Both the position numbers and the translations under genes were made by a program. A DNA stretch of 64,000 nt from the NCBI RefSeq assembly GCF_937863485.1, contig NZ_CALMFY010000005.1, forward strand, positions 1 through 64,000, written 5' to 3'. This stretch comes from an uncultured Nostoc sp. (GTDB lineage: Bacteria; Cyanobacteriota; Cyanobacteriia; Cyanobacteriales; Nostocaceae). The stretch's first letter is position 1; each line of letters begins with the position of its first letter. Shown here one piece after another: positions 7,039 through 33,935 of the stretch. Under the pieces are notes generated by a model, which had not been told where the DNA came from, made no database searches, and was given only the letters and a program-made list of their open reading frames with translations.

Positions 7039-10000
7039 TCAAGGTTGATTTTGCCCGATGAGACTGACGATCGCTGTAGCTAAATCCCCTACTTCGACAG
7101 GTTTAGGTAGGTGTTTTTGAAACCCTGCTGCCATTGCTTGGTTGTAGTTAATTTCTCCAGCATAAGCAGTCAAAGCGATCGCAGGAATTTGCCCCCCTAG
7201 CTCTGGCGGTAATTTTCTCACCTCGCGCAGTAACATATAACCATCCATCAAGGGCATTCCAATATCACTTAACAGGATATCTGGCTTTGATTGGGCTAAT
7301 GTTTCCAGCGCTTGGGCGGCTGATTCAACTGCTGTTACAGTTGCTCCATATTGTTCTAGCGCAAAGCTAAAAAACTCTCGCACATCAGCTTGATCGTCCA
7401 CCAGCAGGATTTGCACTCCAGCAAGTAATGTGTCCTCAGTACTGAGTTCTGGTTGAGAAGCCTCAGTACTGCTGACTCGCAACTCAGAATTTTTGAGTAA
7501 AGGCAGCCTGATTGTAAAGGTAGCCCCTTGTCCTTCTCCCAGACTCTCTGCCTGAACTGTACCACCGTGAAGTTCTACTATGTGACGCACAATTGCCAGT
7601 CCCAATCCTAGTCCGCCAAATATCCTGGTTGTCTTGGCATCTGCTTGTCGGAAGTAGTCAAATACGTAAGGCAAAAATTCTACGATGATTCCCTTACCTG
7701 TATCAATCACCTGAATTTGAGCATCTGACCCAACTTGCTCTAAACGCACTTCTACTCGTCCTTCTGTGGGTGTGAATTTAACGGCATTGGAGAGGAGATT
7801 CCACATCACTTGTTGCAAGCGATCGCTATCGCCCAGAACTTTGCCGATATCATTACTCAGCACTGTTTGAATTTCAATTGACTTAGCTTCTGCTGCTAAA
7901 CGCACCGTTTCTAGTGCAGCTGCGATCGGCACTCTCAAATCCACTGCATAGAGATTTAGATTGACTTTACCTTGTAAAATCCGCGAAACATCAAGTAAAT
8001 CTCCAATTAATTGGGTTTGTAACTGGGCATTGCGCTCGATTGTTTCCAATGCCCGGATTGTACTGGCTTCGTCAAACTTGCGGGTTCTGAGTAACTTTGC
8101 CCACCCTAAAATAGGATTCAGAGGAGTTCGGAGTTCATGGGAAAGGACAGCGAGGAATTCATCCTTAATTCGGTTGGCTGTCTCGGCTTGTGCCCTTGCA
8201 GTCTTTTCAGCTTCGTAAAGTTGAGCGCGAGCGATCGCTTGGGCACACTGCTGTCCCAATGTCAACATAAATCCCCGGTCTTCTTGATTAAATATTTGGT
8301 CATTGGTAAAGCTTAATCCTAGTCCCCCAATTACTTTGCCTTCTGCTATCAAAGGAATGGAAGCGCAGGCATTATTCCCTGTCAGAGCCACAGCATCTGC
8401 TAAGTTGGGATATTTAGCAATCATGGCTGCTAAATTTTCTAAAAAAATCGGCTGCCTAGTTCTGACTGTTTCCGCTATTTGGTTAGGTGTAGTGATCGGA
8501 AAATTTGTCCAGGCATCTATGAGTGATTGTGGATAGCCAATTGCTTGGACAACTTTTAGGGTAGTACCTCCCTGAGTAAGTAAGACAACAGAACCAGCAG
8601 TGGCTTCCAAGGCAGCAATCCCTTGGTTTACGATCACATCAGCCACCTGTTGGGGAGTTAGCGCTTCCGAGAGGGCAGCAGTTATTCTTTGTAAAAGTAG
8701 CGTGCGATTGACAGACCGTTCAGCTGCCTGTTTTGCCTGTTGAGTTTCCTGGTAGAGTCTGGCGTTGTCGATGGCTGTCGCCGCCCGACGAGCTATATCC
8801 TCTGCTAAAGCCAAGTCTGTCTGTTTGTAGTGCCGACCTGACTCGGCTGTAAAAAAAGAGATTGCTCCAAATAATTGCCCACGGGAACGAACTGGAATCA
8901 CCATTAGAGAATGAATACCCAGACTTCGCAGCAATTGCAGATGTTCATCGTCTTCAGCCATCTGCACAAGATGAGACTGAGATAATTCCGGATAAAAAAC
9001 AGATATTCCCAACTGTAGGCGCTGCACAAGCTGTTTTGCTCTGGTTTGGGGTGGATAACGCCGTTGGATTTCGTTTAAAGTATTTTGTTTTGTGGGATCG
9101 GCAATTGCGATCGCAATTTGTTTACTTGACCAATCTTCCTGGAAAACATCTACAATACACCAGTCAGCTAGGGTAGGAACTGCTAGATTAGCCACACTTT
9201 CCAAAGTGATTTCATAATCCAATGAGGCAGCTAGTAAGGTGCTGGCTTCAACTAAAAAGTTTTGTGTAATTTCAACTCGTTTGCGTTTACTAATATCTTC
9301 AATAATGCCTAATGCATACTTTGGAAGTCCATTAGCATCCCAAACTGCTGATGAAGTTAGGTTTACCCAAACAATGGAACCATCTTTGCGGATGTAGCGC
9401 TTCTCTAAGGAATAATCACTAATTTCTTGTGCCAAAACTCGCCGAGCATTCTCCGAATCAACTTCTAAGTCGTCAGGGTGGGTAATTTCCTGAAAGTTCA
9501 TTTGAATTAACTCTTCATGACTATACCCAGTAATTTCGCACACAGCAGAATTAATTTGCAGAAATCGTCCATCCAATCCTATTAGAGTAATGCCCACAGC
9601 TGCCTGGTTAAACATTGCCCGGAACCTTTCTTCGCTTTCCCGCAAAGCAACTTCTGTTTGCTTTGCTGCTGTCACTTCTGCCAGAATAATTCCAATTCCT
9701 ACCGTTTGGCCGATTGTGTTGTTGACCGGGTAATAGTTGCCCAGCCAGTAGCCGTAACGTTTGGGTTGCCCCCTTGTCTCACCACTAATTTCTACATTCA
9801 GCAGAGGTTCTCCACTATCCAACACCCGCTGTAAGAGTGGCTCCAACTCAGCCGCCATCTTTGGCAACACTTCCCCAAATTTGCGTCCTAGATGTTCTTC
9901 TATGGTCAAACCGTTAATCTCAGCAAAAACTTGATTGATTCGGATATATCGCAGTTCCCGATCCAAAAAGCATACTGCAACAGGAGCAGCTCCTAAGAGC

Positions 10001-27605: not shown

Positions 27606-27690
27606 GGAAGTAGGAAGTTGGTGTTCGGAACTCGGAAGTTGGTGTTCAGAACTCAGAAGTTGGTGTTCGGAACTCGGAAGATGATGTTCA
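27606..27690. repeat. 21-bp tandem array, block 1 (about 4 units; GGAACTCGGAAGTTGGTGTTC)
   Basis: ggaagttggtgttcggaactcggaagttggtgttcagaactcagaagttggtgtt... Confidence 0.9.
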
Positions 27691-27793: not shown

Positions 27794-27922
27794 TTTTCTT
27801 TCATTGAGTTAATTAGGCGGACACTATATGAGCCGTCGAATTCACGTTCAATTACAGTTATATAGTGATTCTCCCCTGCTCCTTTGCTCCCACCTCTTCT
27901 CAACTCAGCCCTAACTGTTGCT

Positions 27923-30061
27923 TTAAGGCTTCTGGCACATTCCTCGTTTAAATAACTGCTCCCAAGGGAAATCTTGATTTTCAGTCAGCAACCCCATCAA
28001 GTATTCCACAATTTCTGGTGTGAGTTTACCAAAACCCAGCAAATCATAAATTTCCCAATTCATTTGGGCTTCGGCAGTAACTAGTTGTCTTCCGTCTTCT
28101 GCTTCGTAGTATTGTGTCCAAGCTTTCAGGCGTGCTTTCAGGCGTTCAGCAAAGAGAAATTCGCCAAAACTCTTATGAAAAAACTCAACTCCACCCTCTT
28201 GTTTATCAGCAGGACGAATGTAAAAAGCAGCTAAAGCTGTTTTGAGAGCTTCGTTACCTAATTTTTCTTTAGCTTTTTCAATAAAGATTTTTGCTGTTTC
28301 ATCATCTTGTAAACGTGCCTCTAACATTGACATTGAAGCAAATTCTCCTCCCGACTGCACAACACAAACAGCCGCTTCTGTGAGAATACGTTTTAAATCT
28401 TCGGGTTTTTGTTGGGTTAACTCAATATTTAAATTAGTCCCATCTGTTTGAGAACGCTGTTTTGTCAGTACCCAGTTTAAAGCCTCCTGGTAAATTACAA
28501 TTTTGGCTGTGCTATGGCTTGCTTGCTCTAATTTATAAATTGCCAATTTCCCATCTCGATACATTGCCGCTAACAAATAAAGTAAGAGCGGCTCTTGGGC
28601 TAATTTTTTCACCTCAGATGGACATTTATCACTTTGTAAAAACTGCCCAAAGGCTGCGGTTTTTCCTTTATTAGCTGGTAATTCTTCCCACTTATCTAAC
28701 CATTTTTGTTGGAGTTGTCCCTCCATTTCGACAATTTCCATCCGCTCTAAATTGCGGGGCAAGTAAGGGATACCTTGTAAAGACATCGACCTACCAGTAA
28801 TTAACACCCGATGTCCCATTTCACGGTAATTTTTGCATTCATCCTGAAATCCAGAGACTTGTTTGATAAATGCTTCTAGATTGACGTCGGTTCTAGCCTC
28901 AATATGCAATTCATCAAACCCATCAAGGATAAACAAGAAACGGGTGTTTTTATTCGTCAACCAGTTTTTATCGTTTTGAATAAAGCTAATTTTCAGTTCT
29001 GCTTCTAAAGTATTTTCTAAACGTGATTCAAAAGAGTCAAGATCCCGTAATCGAATCAAAATTGGTGTCCAAATGGGATGCAAATGCTGCCGCACCCAAT
29101 CAGAAAACATGCGACAGAAGACACTTTTACCCCTTCCTGGGCCTCCTTGAACAAACATCACTTGTTCTAGATTATTTGGATTGAGGAGAATTTCCTTAGC
29201 CCATGTTTCTAAATCTAAGGAGTCTGGTTTTTTATCTATCTTCCCATTGTTATCTACAGGTTTGGCTTTTAAAGGTACGTAAATATCTTTAAATGAGAAA
29301 CTTTCGTCAAAAACTAAGTCTAAAGGCTTGCTAGCAATATGAGTTTTTAGGTATTCATCAATGCTAGAGAACTTTTGCTGTTCTTTCTGCCACTCTCCAA
29401 AGGAAGGTTGAATTATATTTTTGATGGCATCGCCTGACTCTATCCAGGCTTTAATGATATAGCGGTGAGTATTCCAAGCTACTCGTTGCGTCAAAATATG
29501 AGCATCAGCATTGGGGATGTTTGTTGCTGCTAACCGCGCCAAGAATACTTGATTAAATGCTTTCGCTAATTCTGATTCGTGGAAACAGGCTACAGCATTG
29601 CTGGCACTTTGATAATCTAATTCAATATCATTGAGTTTTTCTAGTTGTTTGGTTAGTGCTTTATTAATATTGGGGTCAGCATCCCAGTTAATAGATGGGT
29701 ATAAGGATAAAATTTCTTTGACACTTTCCAAATAAGCAGCTTGAGTAACTATAAATACATAGTCTTCTAGAGAAGGATCTTGCTTAGTTATGTCGCGGGA
29801 AAACTTCAGCAAGGCTATTCCAAGTGGCACGAATGGCAAACCCGCACCCACTACCTGCGCTAAGGGTGAACACAACACATCTAGCAGTGAAGATGAATTT
29901 TGTAACAGAGGTTTCAAGAGTTCTACCTTGTCACTTTGTTCTTGAAAGGTTTTTGCGGCTTCTAAAACTGCTTTACCAGTCTCAACTGTGGTGTTCAGAC
30001 TCTCTCCTACTGAAAAGGATTGCCGAAACTTCTGCCAGGTTTGCGATAAACGCTTGTTCAT
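27923..30061 (-). CDS. NACHT-family STAND NTPase, probably 3'-truncated relative to ancestor
   Basis: GGPGRGKSVFCRMFSDW (Walker A), TRFLFILDGFDELH (Walker B/NACHT), VLITGRSMSLQGIP; C-term IYDLLGFGKLTPEIVEYLMGLL matches pentapeptide protein at 32067-33935. Confidence 0.9.
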   Translation of the reverse strand: MNKRLSQTWQKFRQSFSVGESLNTTVETGKAVLEAAKTFQEQSDKVELLKPLLQNSSSLLDVLCSPLAQVVGAGLPFVPLGIALLKFSRDITKQDPSLEDYVFIVTQAAYLESVKEILSLYPSINWDADPNINKALTKQLEKLNDIELDYQSASNAVACFHESELAKAFNQVFLARLAATNIPNADAHILTQRVAWNTHRYIIKAWIESGDAIKNIIQPSFGEWQKEQQKFSSIDEYLKTHIASKPLDLVFDESFSFKDIYVPLKAKPVDNNGKIDKKPDSLDLETWAKEILLNPNNLEQVMFVQGGPGRGKSVFCRMFSDWVRQHLHPIWTPILIRLRDLDSFESRLENTLEAELKISFIQNDKNWLTNKNTRFLFILDGFDELHIEARTDVNLEAFIKQVSGFQDECKNYREMGHRVLITGRSMSLQGIPYLPRNLERMEIVEMEGQLQQKWLDKWEELPANKGKTAAFGQFLQSDKCPSEVKKLAQEPLLLYLLAAMYRDGKLAIYKLEQASHSTAKIVIYQEALNWVLTKQRSQTDGTNLNIELTQQKPEDLKRILTEAAVCVVQSGGEFASMSMLEARLQDDETAKIFIEKAKEKLGNEALKTALAAFYIRPADKQEGGVEFFHKSFGEFLFAERLKARLKAWTQYYEAEDGRQLVTAEAQMNWEIYDLLGFGKLTPEIVEYLMGLLTENQDFPWEQLFKRGMCQKP

Positions 30062-30256: not shown

Positions 30257-30464
30257 TGAAACTCGGAAGATGGTGTTGGGAACTCCGAAGGTGGTGTTGG
30301 GAACTCGGAAGATGGTGTTGGGAACTCGGAAGGTGGTGTTGGGAACTCGGAAGTTGGTGTTGGGAACTCGGAAGTTGGTGTTGGGAACTCGGAAGGTGGT
30401 GTTCGGAACTTGAAAGATGGTGTTCAGAACTCGGAAGTTGATGTTCGGAACTTGAAAGTTTGAT
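30257..30464. repeat. 21-bp tandem array, block 2 (about 9.5 units)
   Basis: ggaactcggaag[atg]tggtgttg iterated with strict 21-bp period. Confidence 0.95.
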
Positions 30465-30484: not shown

Positions 30485-31009
30485 ATGGAAACTGTCACCC
30501 ACCAAAGGAGAAAAATCTTGGCCACAGAACACAAAACACACCTTTACCAAGTTGAAGTAACGTGGACTGGAAATACTGGACAGGGAACTGTTGGTTATAA
30601 AGCTTATGAGCGATCGCATGAGATTTCAGTTGTAGGTAAACCCCTAATTTTCGGTTCCTCTGATTCTGCTTTTCGTGGAGACAGAACTAAATACAATCCA
30701 GAAGAATTGCTAGTTGCATCGCTGTCTACTTGTCATATGCTTTGGTATTTACATTTGTGTGCTGAGGTGCAGCTTGTTGTCACTAGCTATGTTGATCACC
30801 CAGTTGGCAAAATGATTGAGACTGACGATAGAGGCGGAAAATTCGCTGAAGTGATTCTTAAGCCAGTTGTAACAGTGAAAGACTGTAAAGATCCAGCGAT
30901 CGCCAAACAGTTACATGAAAAAGCGCATCACCTGTGTTTTATTGCCAATTCAATGAATTTCCCTGTACGTTGTGAACCATCATTTGAGGCTGGCACACAA
31001 CTTAACTGA
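30485..31009 (+). CDS. OsmC-family protein
   Basis: NPEELLVASLSTCHMLWYLHLCAEVQLVVTSY; C-term HHLCFIANSMNFPVRCEP. Confidence 0.85.
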   Translation: METVTHQRRKILATEHKTHLYQVEVTWTGNTGQGTVGYKAYERSHEISVVGKPLIFGSSDSAFRGDRTKYNPEELLVASLSTCHMLWYLHLCAEVQLVVTSYVDHPVGKMIETDDRGGKFAEVILKPVVTVKDCKDPAIAKQLHEKAHHLCFIANSMNFPVRCEPSFEAGTQLN

Positions 31010-31325
31010 ATTATTAAACAAAAAGCTAGTAGAACACGGCGTAAATAAGCAGACCATTGAAAAGCTCTTTAGAGCTTATTCCATAATACTTTTGACTTTT
31101 GACTTTTGACTTTTGACTTCCGCCTTGCGGTACTAGGGCTTGAAAATGACCGAGACAATTTTAGATTTTAGATAATAGAATTTGGATTAAATTAAAATCT
31201 AGAATCTAAAAAAAGGTTCCACAAGCGACAAGAGTCGTGGAGAAATGAAAAAATTTCATCATCCAGAGCAAGTGCATTAATGCATGGGGTCAATCCAAAA
31301 TCCAAAATCCAAAATCCAAAATCGA

Positions 31326-31745
31326 ATGACGATTATCCGTGTGGCACAAGCAAGAGATGCTGAAGCGTTACTGGTTCTAGCCAAAACCTTGGCGACATCG
31401 TTTGTCGTTGACCCGAAGGCTTTTCGTGTCGCATTTTCAGAACTCTTGTCTTCGCCGTCAGGTTACCTCGCTGTAGCTGAGGTAGACGAAGATATTGTGG
31501 GTTATATTCTTGGCTTTGACCATTACACGTTCTATGCAAACGGGCGGGTGGCTTGGGTAGAGGAAATTATGGTTGACGCGGACTACCGAAAAATGGGGAT
31601 TGGCAGATCACTGATGCAAAGCTTTGAAAGTTGGGCTACTGATCGAGATGCCAAGCTTGTGGCATTGGCTACACGTCGGGCAGGGAACTTCTACAAGGCA
31701 TTGGGCTATGAAGAGTCTGCAACCTACTGGCGAAAGCTACTTTGA
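31326..31745 (+). CDS. GNAT-family acetyltransferase
   Basis: VEEIMVDADYRKMGIGRSLMQSFESWA (acetyl-CoA motif), FYKALGYEES; start at MTIIRVAQ after an ATCCAAA STRR. Confidence 0.85.
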   Translation: MTIIRVAQARDAEALLVLAKTLATSFVVDPKAFRVAFSELLSSPSGYLAVAEVDEDIVGYILGFDHYTFYANGRVAWVEEIMVDADYRKMGIGRSLMQSFESWATDRDAKLVALATRRAGNFYKALGYEESATYWRKLL

Positions 31746-31874: not shown

Positions 31875-32043
31875 TCCATAGATGGTGTTCGGAACTCGGA
31901 AGTTGGTGTTCGGAACTCGGTAGTTGTAGTTAATAACTCTTATTTTGGTGTTCCGAAGTCGTAATGTGGTGTTCAGAACTCGAAAGTTGGTGTTGGGAAC
32001 TCGAAAGGTGGTGTTCAGAACTCGGAAGGTGGTGTTCAAAGCT
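31875..32043. repeat. 21-bp tandem array, block 3 (about 8 units, middle ones degenerate)
   Basis: gatggtgttcggaactcggaagttggtgttcggaactcgg... Confidence 0.9.
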
Positions 32044-32066: not shown

Positions 32067-33935
32067 TCAATTCAATCCCAGTTCTTCTTTCAACGCCTCC
32101 GGCACATTAACTGCTGTCTCTAATCCCCGCACATCTTCCCACTGCTGCTTTTTACCCCAGGTCATTTTTTCCATATTGGCGTCGCTGAGGTCAGCACCGC
32201 CGAGAATGGCATAACTGAGGTTACTGTGGCTGAGATCCGCGCCGTTGAGGATAGCACCACTGAGGTTACTGCCACTGAGGTTAGCACTGTTAAGGTTGGC
32301 ATAGCTGAAGTCTGTGCCGAAAAGGATAGCGTCGGTGAGGTCGGCACCACTGAGGTCAGCGTCGCTGAGAATCACCCCACTGAGGTCGGCGTCGTTGAGA
32401 GTTACCCGACTCAGGTCTACACCGCTGAGGTCTGCGCCTAAGAACATTGCACCGTTGAGTCTGGCGTTGTTAAGCTTGGCACCGTTAAGTTTAGCGTAGC
32501 TAAGGTCTGCGGCAACAAGGATGGCGTCGCTGAGGTTGGTACTGAAAAGAATTGTGTCACTGAGGTTAGTGCCGTTGAGGATGGCGTGACTCAAATCAGC
32601 ACCACTGAGGTCGGCGCGACAGAGGTCGGCATGGTTAAGGTTGGTGCTGCTAAGGTTGGCTTCACTTAGATTCGCACCGAAAAGGATGGCGTTGCTGAGG
32701 TCAGCATGGCTAAGGTTGGTGCTGCTGAGGTTTGTGTGTCTTAGGTTGGCGCGGTTGAGGTTTGCGTGTCTTAGGTTGGCTCGTCTGAGGTTGGCGCGGG
32801 TGAGGTCGGCTCGGCTAAGGTTGGCTGAGCTAAGGTTAGCACCGCTGAGGTTGGTGCTGCTGAGGTCGGTACCACTGAGGTTAGCACCAGTGAGGTTGGC
32901 ACTGCTGAGATTGGCATCACCGAGGTTAGCACCGCTAAGGTTGGCACCGCTGAAGTTTACCCCAGTTAAGTTGGCATCGCCCAGGTAAGCATGGCTGAGG
33001 TCAGCACCCCTAAAGTCTGCCCCAGTGAGGTTGGCATCGCCCAGGTAAGCACTGCGAAAGTTGCCGCCTTTGAGGAATTGCCCAACTATACTGCTAAAAT
33101 TACCAATTTCCAGGGCATCGCTATAGTTGATGATCCGCAGCAGTTGGGATGTGAAAAAATTGTCTGTGTCTGGTTGAGCAGATGGATAGAAGGTGATTTT
33201 TTGTTTGAGTTCATCTCGCTCTTGGGCGTAGCGATGTAACTCTAACAGTAAAATCAGTACGTTCAGCCCTGTATATATATCTACCTGTCTTAGCCCGATC
33301 GCAATATTTTGTGCCGCCAACTTTAATCTTGTTTTCTGAGGCAGGTTATCATCTAGTGTCCCATCGATAAATTCTCCCTGACACCAGCGACGATAAAAAT
33401 CTTCTAGCCGCCAGAAAAGTAGTTCTAGGCGAATTTTTTTACCTGTCACCAGTAATTCCATGAGTTCGTTGACTATTTCTGGTTTCAGCGCTCCATTGCC
33501 CAGTAAATCATAAATCTCTTCATGCATCTGGCGATCGCCTACTCTCAAACATAACTCTGATGGTAGCGGGCCCGATGTCTGATCACCTATCTTAGAAGTC
33601 AAACTACTCTTTGATATTGTCCATTTTTTTAAGCTTTCTTGCAGTCTTTGAAAGCATAAATCTGACTGCAAATTATCTTGAGCAAATTTAACGCTTTTGT
33701 CTGCTTTAATGCTTTTTCCTAGAGGTAAAACTGCTTCGGTTTCCACAGATGTGGTCTTTGGCATCTCTTCTAAACTTATATCCCTCACATAATTTCTCAG
33801 CAGTTGCCAGACTTGAGATAAATATGTTGACATTTCTGTGTCCGTTGTTACATTTAAATTACTGTTTTGATAATCCTGAACTAAAAATTTTTCTGTGATA
33901 GTTTGCTTTTCATTGTCAAAAATTAATAGTATCAA
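32067..33935 (-). CDS. Pentapeptide-repeat protein with NACHT-protein-like linker
   Basis: Long run of A(D/N)Lxx pentapeptides; N-term MHEEIYDLLGNGALKPEIVNELMELL; C-term NVPEALKEELGLN. Confidence 0.92.
   Translation of the reverse strand: MILLIFDNEKQTITEKFLVQDYQNSNLNVTTDTEMSTYLSQVWQLLRNYVRDISLEEMPKTTSVETEAVLPLGKSIKADKSVKFAQDNLQSDLCFQRLQESLKKWTISKSSLTSKIGDQTSGPLPSELCLRVGDRQMHEEIYDLLGNGALKPEIVNELMELLVTGKKIRLELLFWRLEDFYRRWCQGEFIDGTLDDNLPQKTRLKLAAQNIAIGLRQVDIYTGLNVLILLLELHRYAQERDELKQKITFYPSAQPDTDNFFTSQLLRIINYSDALEIGNFSSIVGQFLKGGNFRSAYLGDANLTGADFRGADLSHAYLGDANLTGVNFSGANLSGANLGDANLSSANLTGANLSGTDLSSTNLSGANLSSANLSRADLTRANLRRANLRHANLNRANLRHTNLSSTNLSHADLSNAILFGANLSEANLSSTNLNHADLCRADLSGADLSHAILNGTNLSDTILFSTNLSDAILVAADLSYAKLNGAKLNNARLNGAMFLGADLSGVDLSRVTLNDADLSGVILSDADLSGADLTDAILFGTDFSYANLNSANLSGSNLSGAILNGADLSHSNLSYAILGGADLSDANMEKMTWGKKQQWEDVRGLETAVNVPEALKEELGLN

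Follow-up and report, generated by a model that had tools for sequence, protein, structure and literature searches.

A probable frameshifting deletion that parted a Nostoc NACHT gene from its pentapeptide repeats

The NACHT gene, its out-of-frame tail and the neighbouring paralog

The window, by which we mean the whole stretch of 64,000 nucleotides of the Nostoc contig that was analysed, carries on its minus strand a gene of the NACHT type, akin to immune receptors, of 712 aa (27923..30061) that is truncated, as judged from Pfam and from the alignment of its orthologs. Pfam places an NNH3 domain (PF22735) at residues 47-257 (3.5e-61) and a NACHT domain (PF05729) from residue 301 (1.2e-7; 32.2 bits against a cut-off of 26.7). 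Both the Walker A motif GGPGRGKS and the Walker B-like LFILDGFDE are intact by eye, and the P-loop GPGRGKS is invariant across the ortholog alignment. After the NACHT domain follow a helical region, the first ~45 residues of a linker and then an out-of-frame ending, so that the minus-strand reading frame 30061-27923 terminates in EQLFKRGMCQKP and a stop. The new in-frame ending GMCQKP (27923..27943, minus strand) is a tail read out of frame, and is absent from every intact NACHT ortholog compared.

One frame over, the minus strand reads RNVPEALKQQLGLS at 27900..27944, with its stop at 27902-27900. The preliminary description had seen in this stretch the C-terminal tail of a pentapeptide protein, lying out of frame at the 3' end of the NACHT gene and resembling the C-terminus of the protein encoded at 32067, and on both points it was right. 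A six-frame, 13-residue scan of the window with NVPEALKEELGLN returned its own source (13/13), the fossil tail (10/13) and then nothing above 6/13, and the best match in 20 shuffled windows was 5-7/13. The fossil tail is of the NACHT-ortholog type (KQQLGLS) and not of the type of the 32067 neighbour (KEELGLN), and it agrees with the nearest NACHT ortholog, that of genome G048, in 13/13 residues and 43/45 bases. Apart from the shortness of the tail (13 residues) nothing speaks for a chance similarity, which is refuted by the 43 matching bases, by the collinear DNA downstream and by shuffles that never exceed 7/13; its probability is practically nil.

The neighbouring gene on the minus strand (32067..33935) encodes a pentapeptide paralog that has no NACHT. 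Its linker, repeats and tail are of the same kind, and it aligns over 328 aa with the intact NACHT protein of G048 at 51% identity, with only a weak trace of the first 40 residues of the intact NACHT proteins. It is found at the same place in 8/8 relatives, measures 588-590 aa from a conserved MSTYL start and has a dN/dS of 0.17-0.24 outside the closest pair. Its conserved place, fixed length and low dN/dS indicate that it is an old NACHT-less paralog rather than a cut-off end of the window gene. Its tail is only a look-alike, and the fossil tail did not come from it. Gene conversion or recombination with this neighbour was also considered and rejected, since the tail and the DNA downstream of it match the NACHT orthologs instead.

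In the window as well as in the collinear G048, an OsmC-like gene and a GNAT acetyltransferase gene (30485-31745), flanked by arrays of a 21-bp repeat, separate the two paralogs; in G027, G012, G008, G009, G015 and G037 the paralogs are spaced by at most about 580 bp. The tandem repeat, GGAACTCGGAAGTTGGTGTTC, perhaps consists of three 7-bp units. Its three arrays (27606-27689, 30260-30460 and 31883-32038) share one strand and enclose the NACHT gene together with the NACHT-less paralog, and the unit is found nowhere else in the 7.5-Mb genome when up to 2 mismatches are allowed. There are 18 copies in the window and 30 in G048, and none in G027 and G012 even with up to 4 mismatches.

Intact orthologs and the missing 754 bp

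Seven Nostoc genomes contain a longer ortholog with an open frame of 944-1060 aa: G048, G027, G008 (N. flagelliforme FACHB-838), G012 (N. linckia z4), G003, G015 and G009 (N. foliaceum FACHB-393), three of them assembled in 5-9 contigs. The layout of these orthologs is NNH3, NACHT, helical linker, pentapeptide repeats and tail. All seven read on in frame after FKR, through LEKFY..W.KGKFIDS, the linker and the repeats, to a tail such as GLDTARNVPEALKQQLGLS, with the general form NV(P/A)EALKQ(Q/K/E)LGLS. The linker, the repeats and the NVPEALKQQLGL tail, in frame in these orthologs, have been deleted or frameshifted in the window gene. Most homologs in a tblastn-confirmed search align to the window protein up to residue 706 and then continue. 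The intact orthologs, those of N. flagelliforme FACHB-838 and N. linckia z4 among them, occupy the same gene position and are 80-94% identical over residues 1-706, whereas the window copy is without ~250 codons of remaining linker and pentapeptide repeats and ends GMCQKP. The undeleted allele that was to be looked for in related Nostoc genomes is thus present, and a set of relatives devoid of it, which would have spoken against a deletion, is not what we see.

Compared with G048, the nearest ortholog (94% identical), the window shows a single gap of 754 bp (L045:10216-10969) and is otherwise collinear, with a DNA identity of 94.8% across the 3.9 kb that precede the junction and of 95-97.5% beyond it. 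The junction lies at 27944..27945 on the minus strand, between TTTAAACG and AGGAATGTGCC, and the window joins TTTAAACG directly to AGGAATGTGCCAGAAGCC. Since 754 mod 3 = 1, the gap shifts the frame, just as expected from an internal deletion that joined the linker to the tail. The microhomology at the junction is 0-2 bp: none with the tail of G048 (..GCA/AGG), and two (CG) with that of N. flagelliforme (..GCG/AGG). The pentapeptide repeats are gone, as had been proposed, but they are not all that was lost; the missing piece comprises about 110 linker residues, 124 residues of the pentapeptide region and a short segment before the tail. A search for this 754-bp piece across the 7.5-Mb genome of the window did not find it, the best matches being paralogous DNA at 67-71% and two stretches of 41-45 bases at 82-83%, and translocation to another place in the genome is thereby ruled out. 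Neither is it a case of deletion between the flanking 21-bp arrays, as both breakpoints lie outside them.

For the intact L008 ortholog, which has 966 aa, a fold predicted with 7 sequences has a mean pLDDT of 54, and only the pentapeptide solenoid is confident, with values mostly of 80-93 that begin near residue 830. The breakpoint, at ~703, maps to a low-confidence predicted helix at 697-712, and a search among solved structures gave no match.

A tree built on the shared part joins the window and G048 as fully supported sisters, which places the deletion on the window's own branch among the genomes compared, one per species. Both differences between the fossil tail and that of G048 are synonymous in the old frame, and the deletion is for that reason apparently recent. 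For the NACHT part, the window branch has 13 silent and 20 replacement changes once these are polarised, and the G048 branch 8 silent and 19 replacement. The NACHT part of the window gene is still open and replacements are not in excess over those of the intact G048, with little time for decay to show, which is what would be expected of a recent event.

Other broken or short members of the family

A survey of the family gave about 116 members in 90/218 Nostocaceae genomes. Those with an open frame below 800 aa were the window (718), NMS8 (726), G157 (779), G141 (683) and G083 (709), where G083 stops at a contig end and G141 is broken near one, and neither was taken for a certain case of natural truncation. 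In the NMS8 allele (G037, L018/L046) a single additional A in GGGAAAATTTATTGA ends the protein after KGKIY and leaves a linker-pentapeptide frame of 339 aa open beyond the 726-aa NACHT frame; this split may be real or may be a sequence error. As in the window, NACHT is parted from the pentapeptide portion near the same residue, but by a +1 frameshift that left the pentapeptide frame complete and not by a deletion. In G157 (L083, a single-contig genome) the whole linker has been lost in frame (..WTEPGRRG/ADLSDANL..), while repeats and tail are kept, and the break in G141 falls on this same WTEPGRRG. The separate loss in NMS8 suggests that the connection can be broken, and together with the breaks in G157 and G141 these sequences indicate that breakage of the NACHT-pentapeptide connection is rare yet recurrent.

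At the other end of the gene, G003 (L050 about 8020-8050) is missing the spacer along with ~26 codons from the start of its NACHT gene, so that NACHT codon ~28 follows almost directly after the stop of the neighbour and the usual start is lacking.

Origin and possible meaning of the short form

The explanation that we favour, with a probability of about 0.87, is a frameshifting deletion of about 754 bp that produced the 712-aa form ending in GMCQKP, which most likely no longer responds. It would have been one spontaneous event in this strain, through end joining or slippage during replication and with no more than 2 bp of homology, that took the remaining linker, every pentapeptide repeat and the segment preceding the C-terminal tail of an NNH3-NACHT-pentapeptide gene. 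Comparison with the relatives shows that the remaining tail codons were joined one base out of frame. A disrupting lesion against the orthologs, by which a pseudogene is recognised, is present in the form of the 754-bp frameshifting deletion. Judged by its sequence, the window case is ordinary gene erosion, well documented by the intact copies in relatives.

It could be argued that the intact gene is present and that the assembler dropped 754 bp with near-perfect 15-bp pentapeptide repeats. The window genome is a draft of 250 contigs, and near-identical 15-bp repeats such as those in the missing piece are badly handled by short-read assemblies. The joined points are however situated outside the repeats, in unique sequence, the first of them more than 300 bp ahead of the repeats and the second several tens of bp past them. 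They have only 0-2 bp in common, whereas the collapse of a repeat joins within the repeat; nor was a leftover contig found that carries the missing piece. We consider such an artefact very improbable.

A short form that is functional and selected, i.e. a NACHT ATPase without repeats of its own that perhaps works with the 32067-33935 paralog in trans, is in our opinion unlikely. In its favour, the NACHT part is open with replacements no faster than in the intact sister, the paralog has the same linker and repeats and is kept in 8/8 relatives at 588-590 aa under purifying selection, and NMS8 independently parts NACHT from a pentapeptide frame of 339 aa that is otherwise open. The relatives, on the other hand, have the paralog alongside an intact NACHT protein, so that it does not stand in for what was lost; only a few of the about 116 family members are short forms, and the time since the deletion is too short for a test of selection to have power. 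There is only a slim chance that a one-piece receptor became a two-piece one, with the shortened NACHT ATPase kept and controlled in trans by the adjoining NACHT-less paralog.

In STAND/NACHT proteins the C-terminal repeats are believed to detect the trigger and to contribute to keeping the ATPase off. If the C-terminal part of the window gene, by analogy, sensed or regulated, its loss should disable the response. Under the deletion that we favour, the putative sensor or regulatory half has gone and the receptor remnant is most likely non-responsive; seen against the general STAND scheme it would be inert or decaying towards a pseudogene. NLRP3 that lacks its leucine-rich repeats nevertheless responds (PMC6281599), which makes an active remnant in the window possible.

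No model of PADLOC matches the window NACHT gene, and a literature search found no paper and no experiment on the NNH3-NACHT-pentapeptide architecture in particular. We know of no defence activity for this type. Kaur et al. (PMC7159879, PMC8195603) count STAND NTPases and pentapeptide repeats among the modules of conflict systems in multicellular bacteria. The bNACHT proteins, which are bacterial and NLR-related, act in defence against phages (PMC12169576). One of these anti-phage proteins, bNACHT25 (PMC12169576), resembles the window family in its central NACHT ATPase between N- and C-terminal parts, but it has a DNase effector and NCH1, and its N- and C-terminal domains differ from those of the NNH3-pentapeptide type.

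The window gene is a clean example of a receptor-like NACHT gene losing its C-terminal half, and it cautions against annotating the 712-aa form as a NACHT protein that is short by nature. Among the NACHT orthologs the pentapeptide region differs in length by multiples of five residues, between 104 and 199, and these length-variable repeats, set against those of the fixed-length paralog, offer a small system for testing the role of the pentapeptides.
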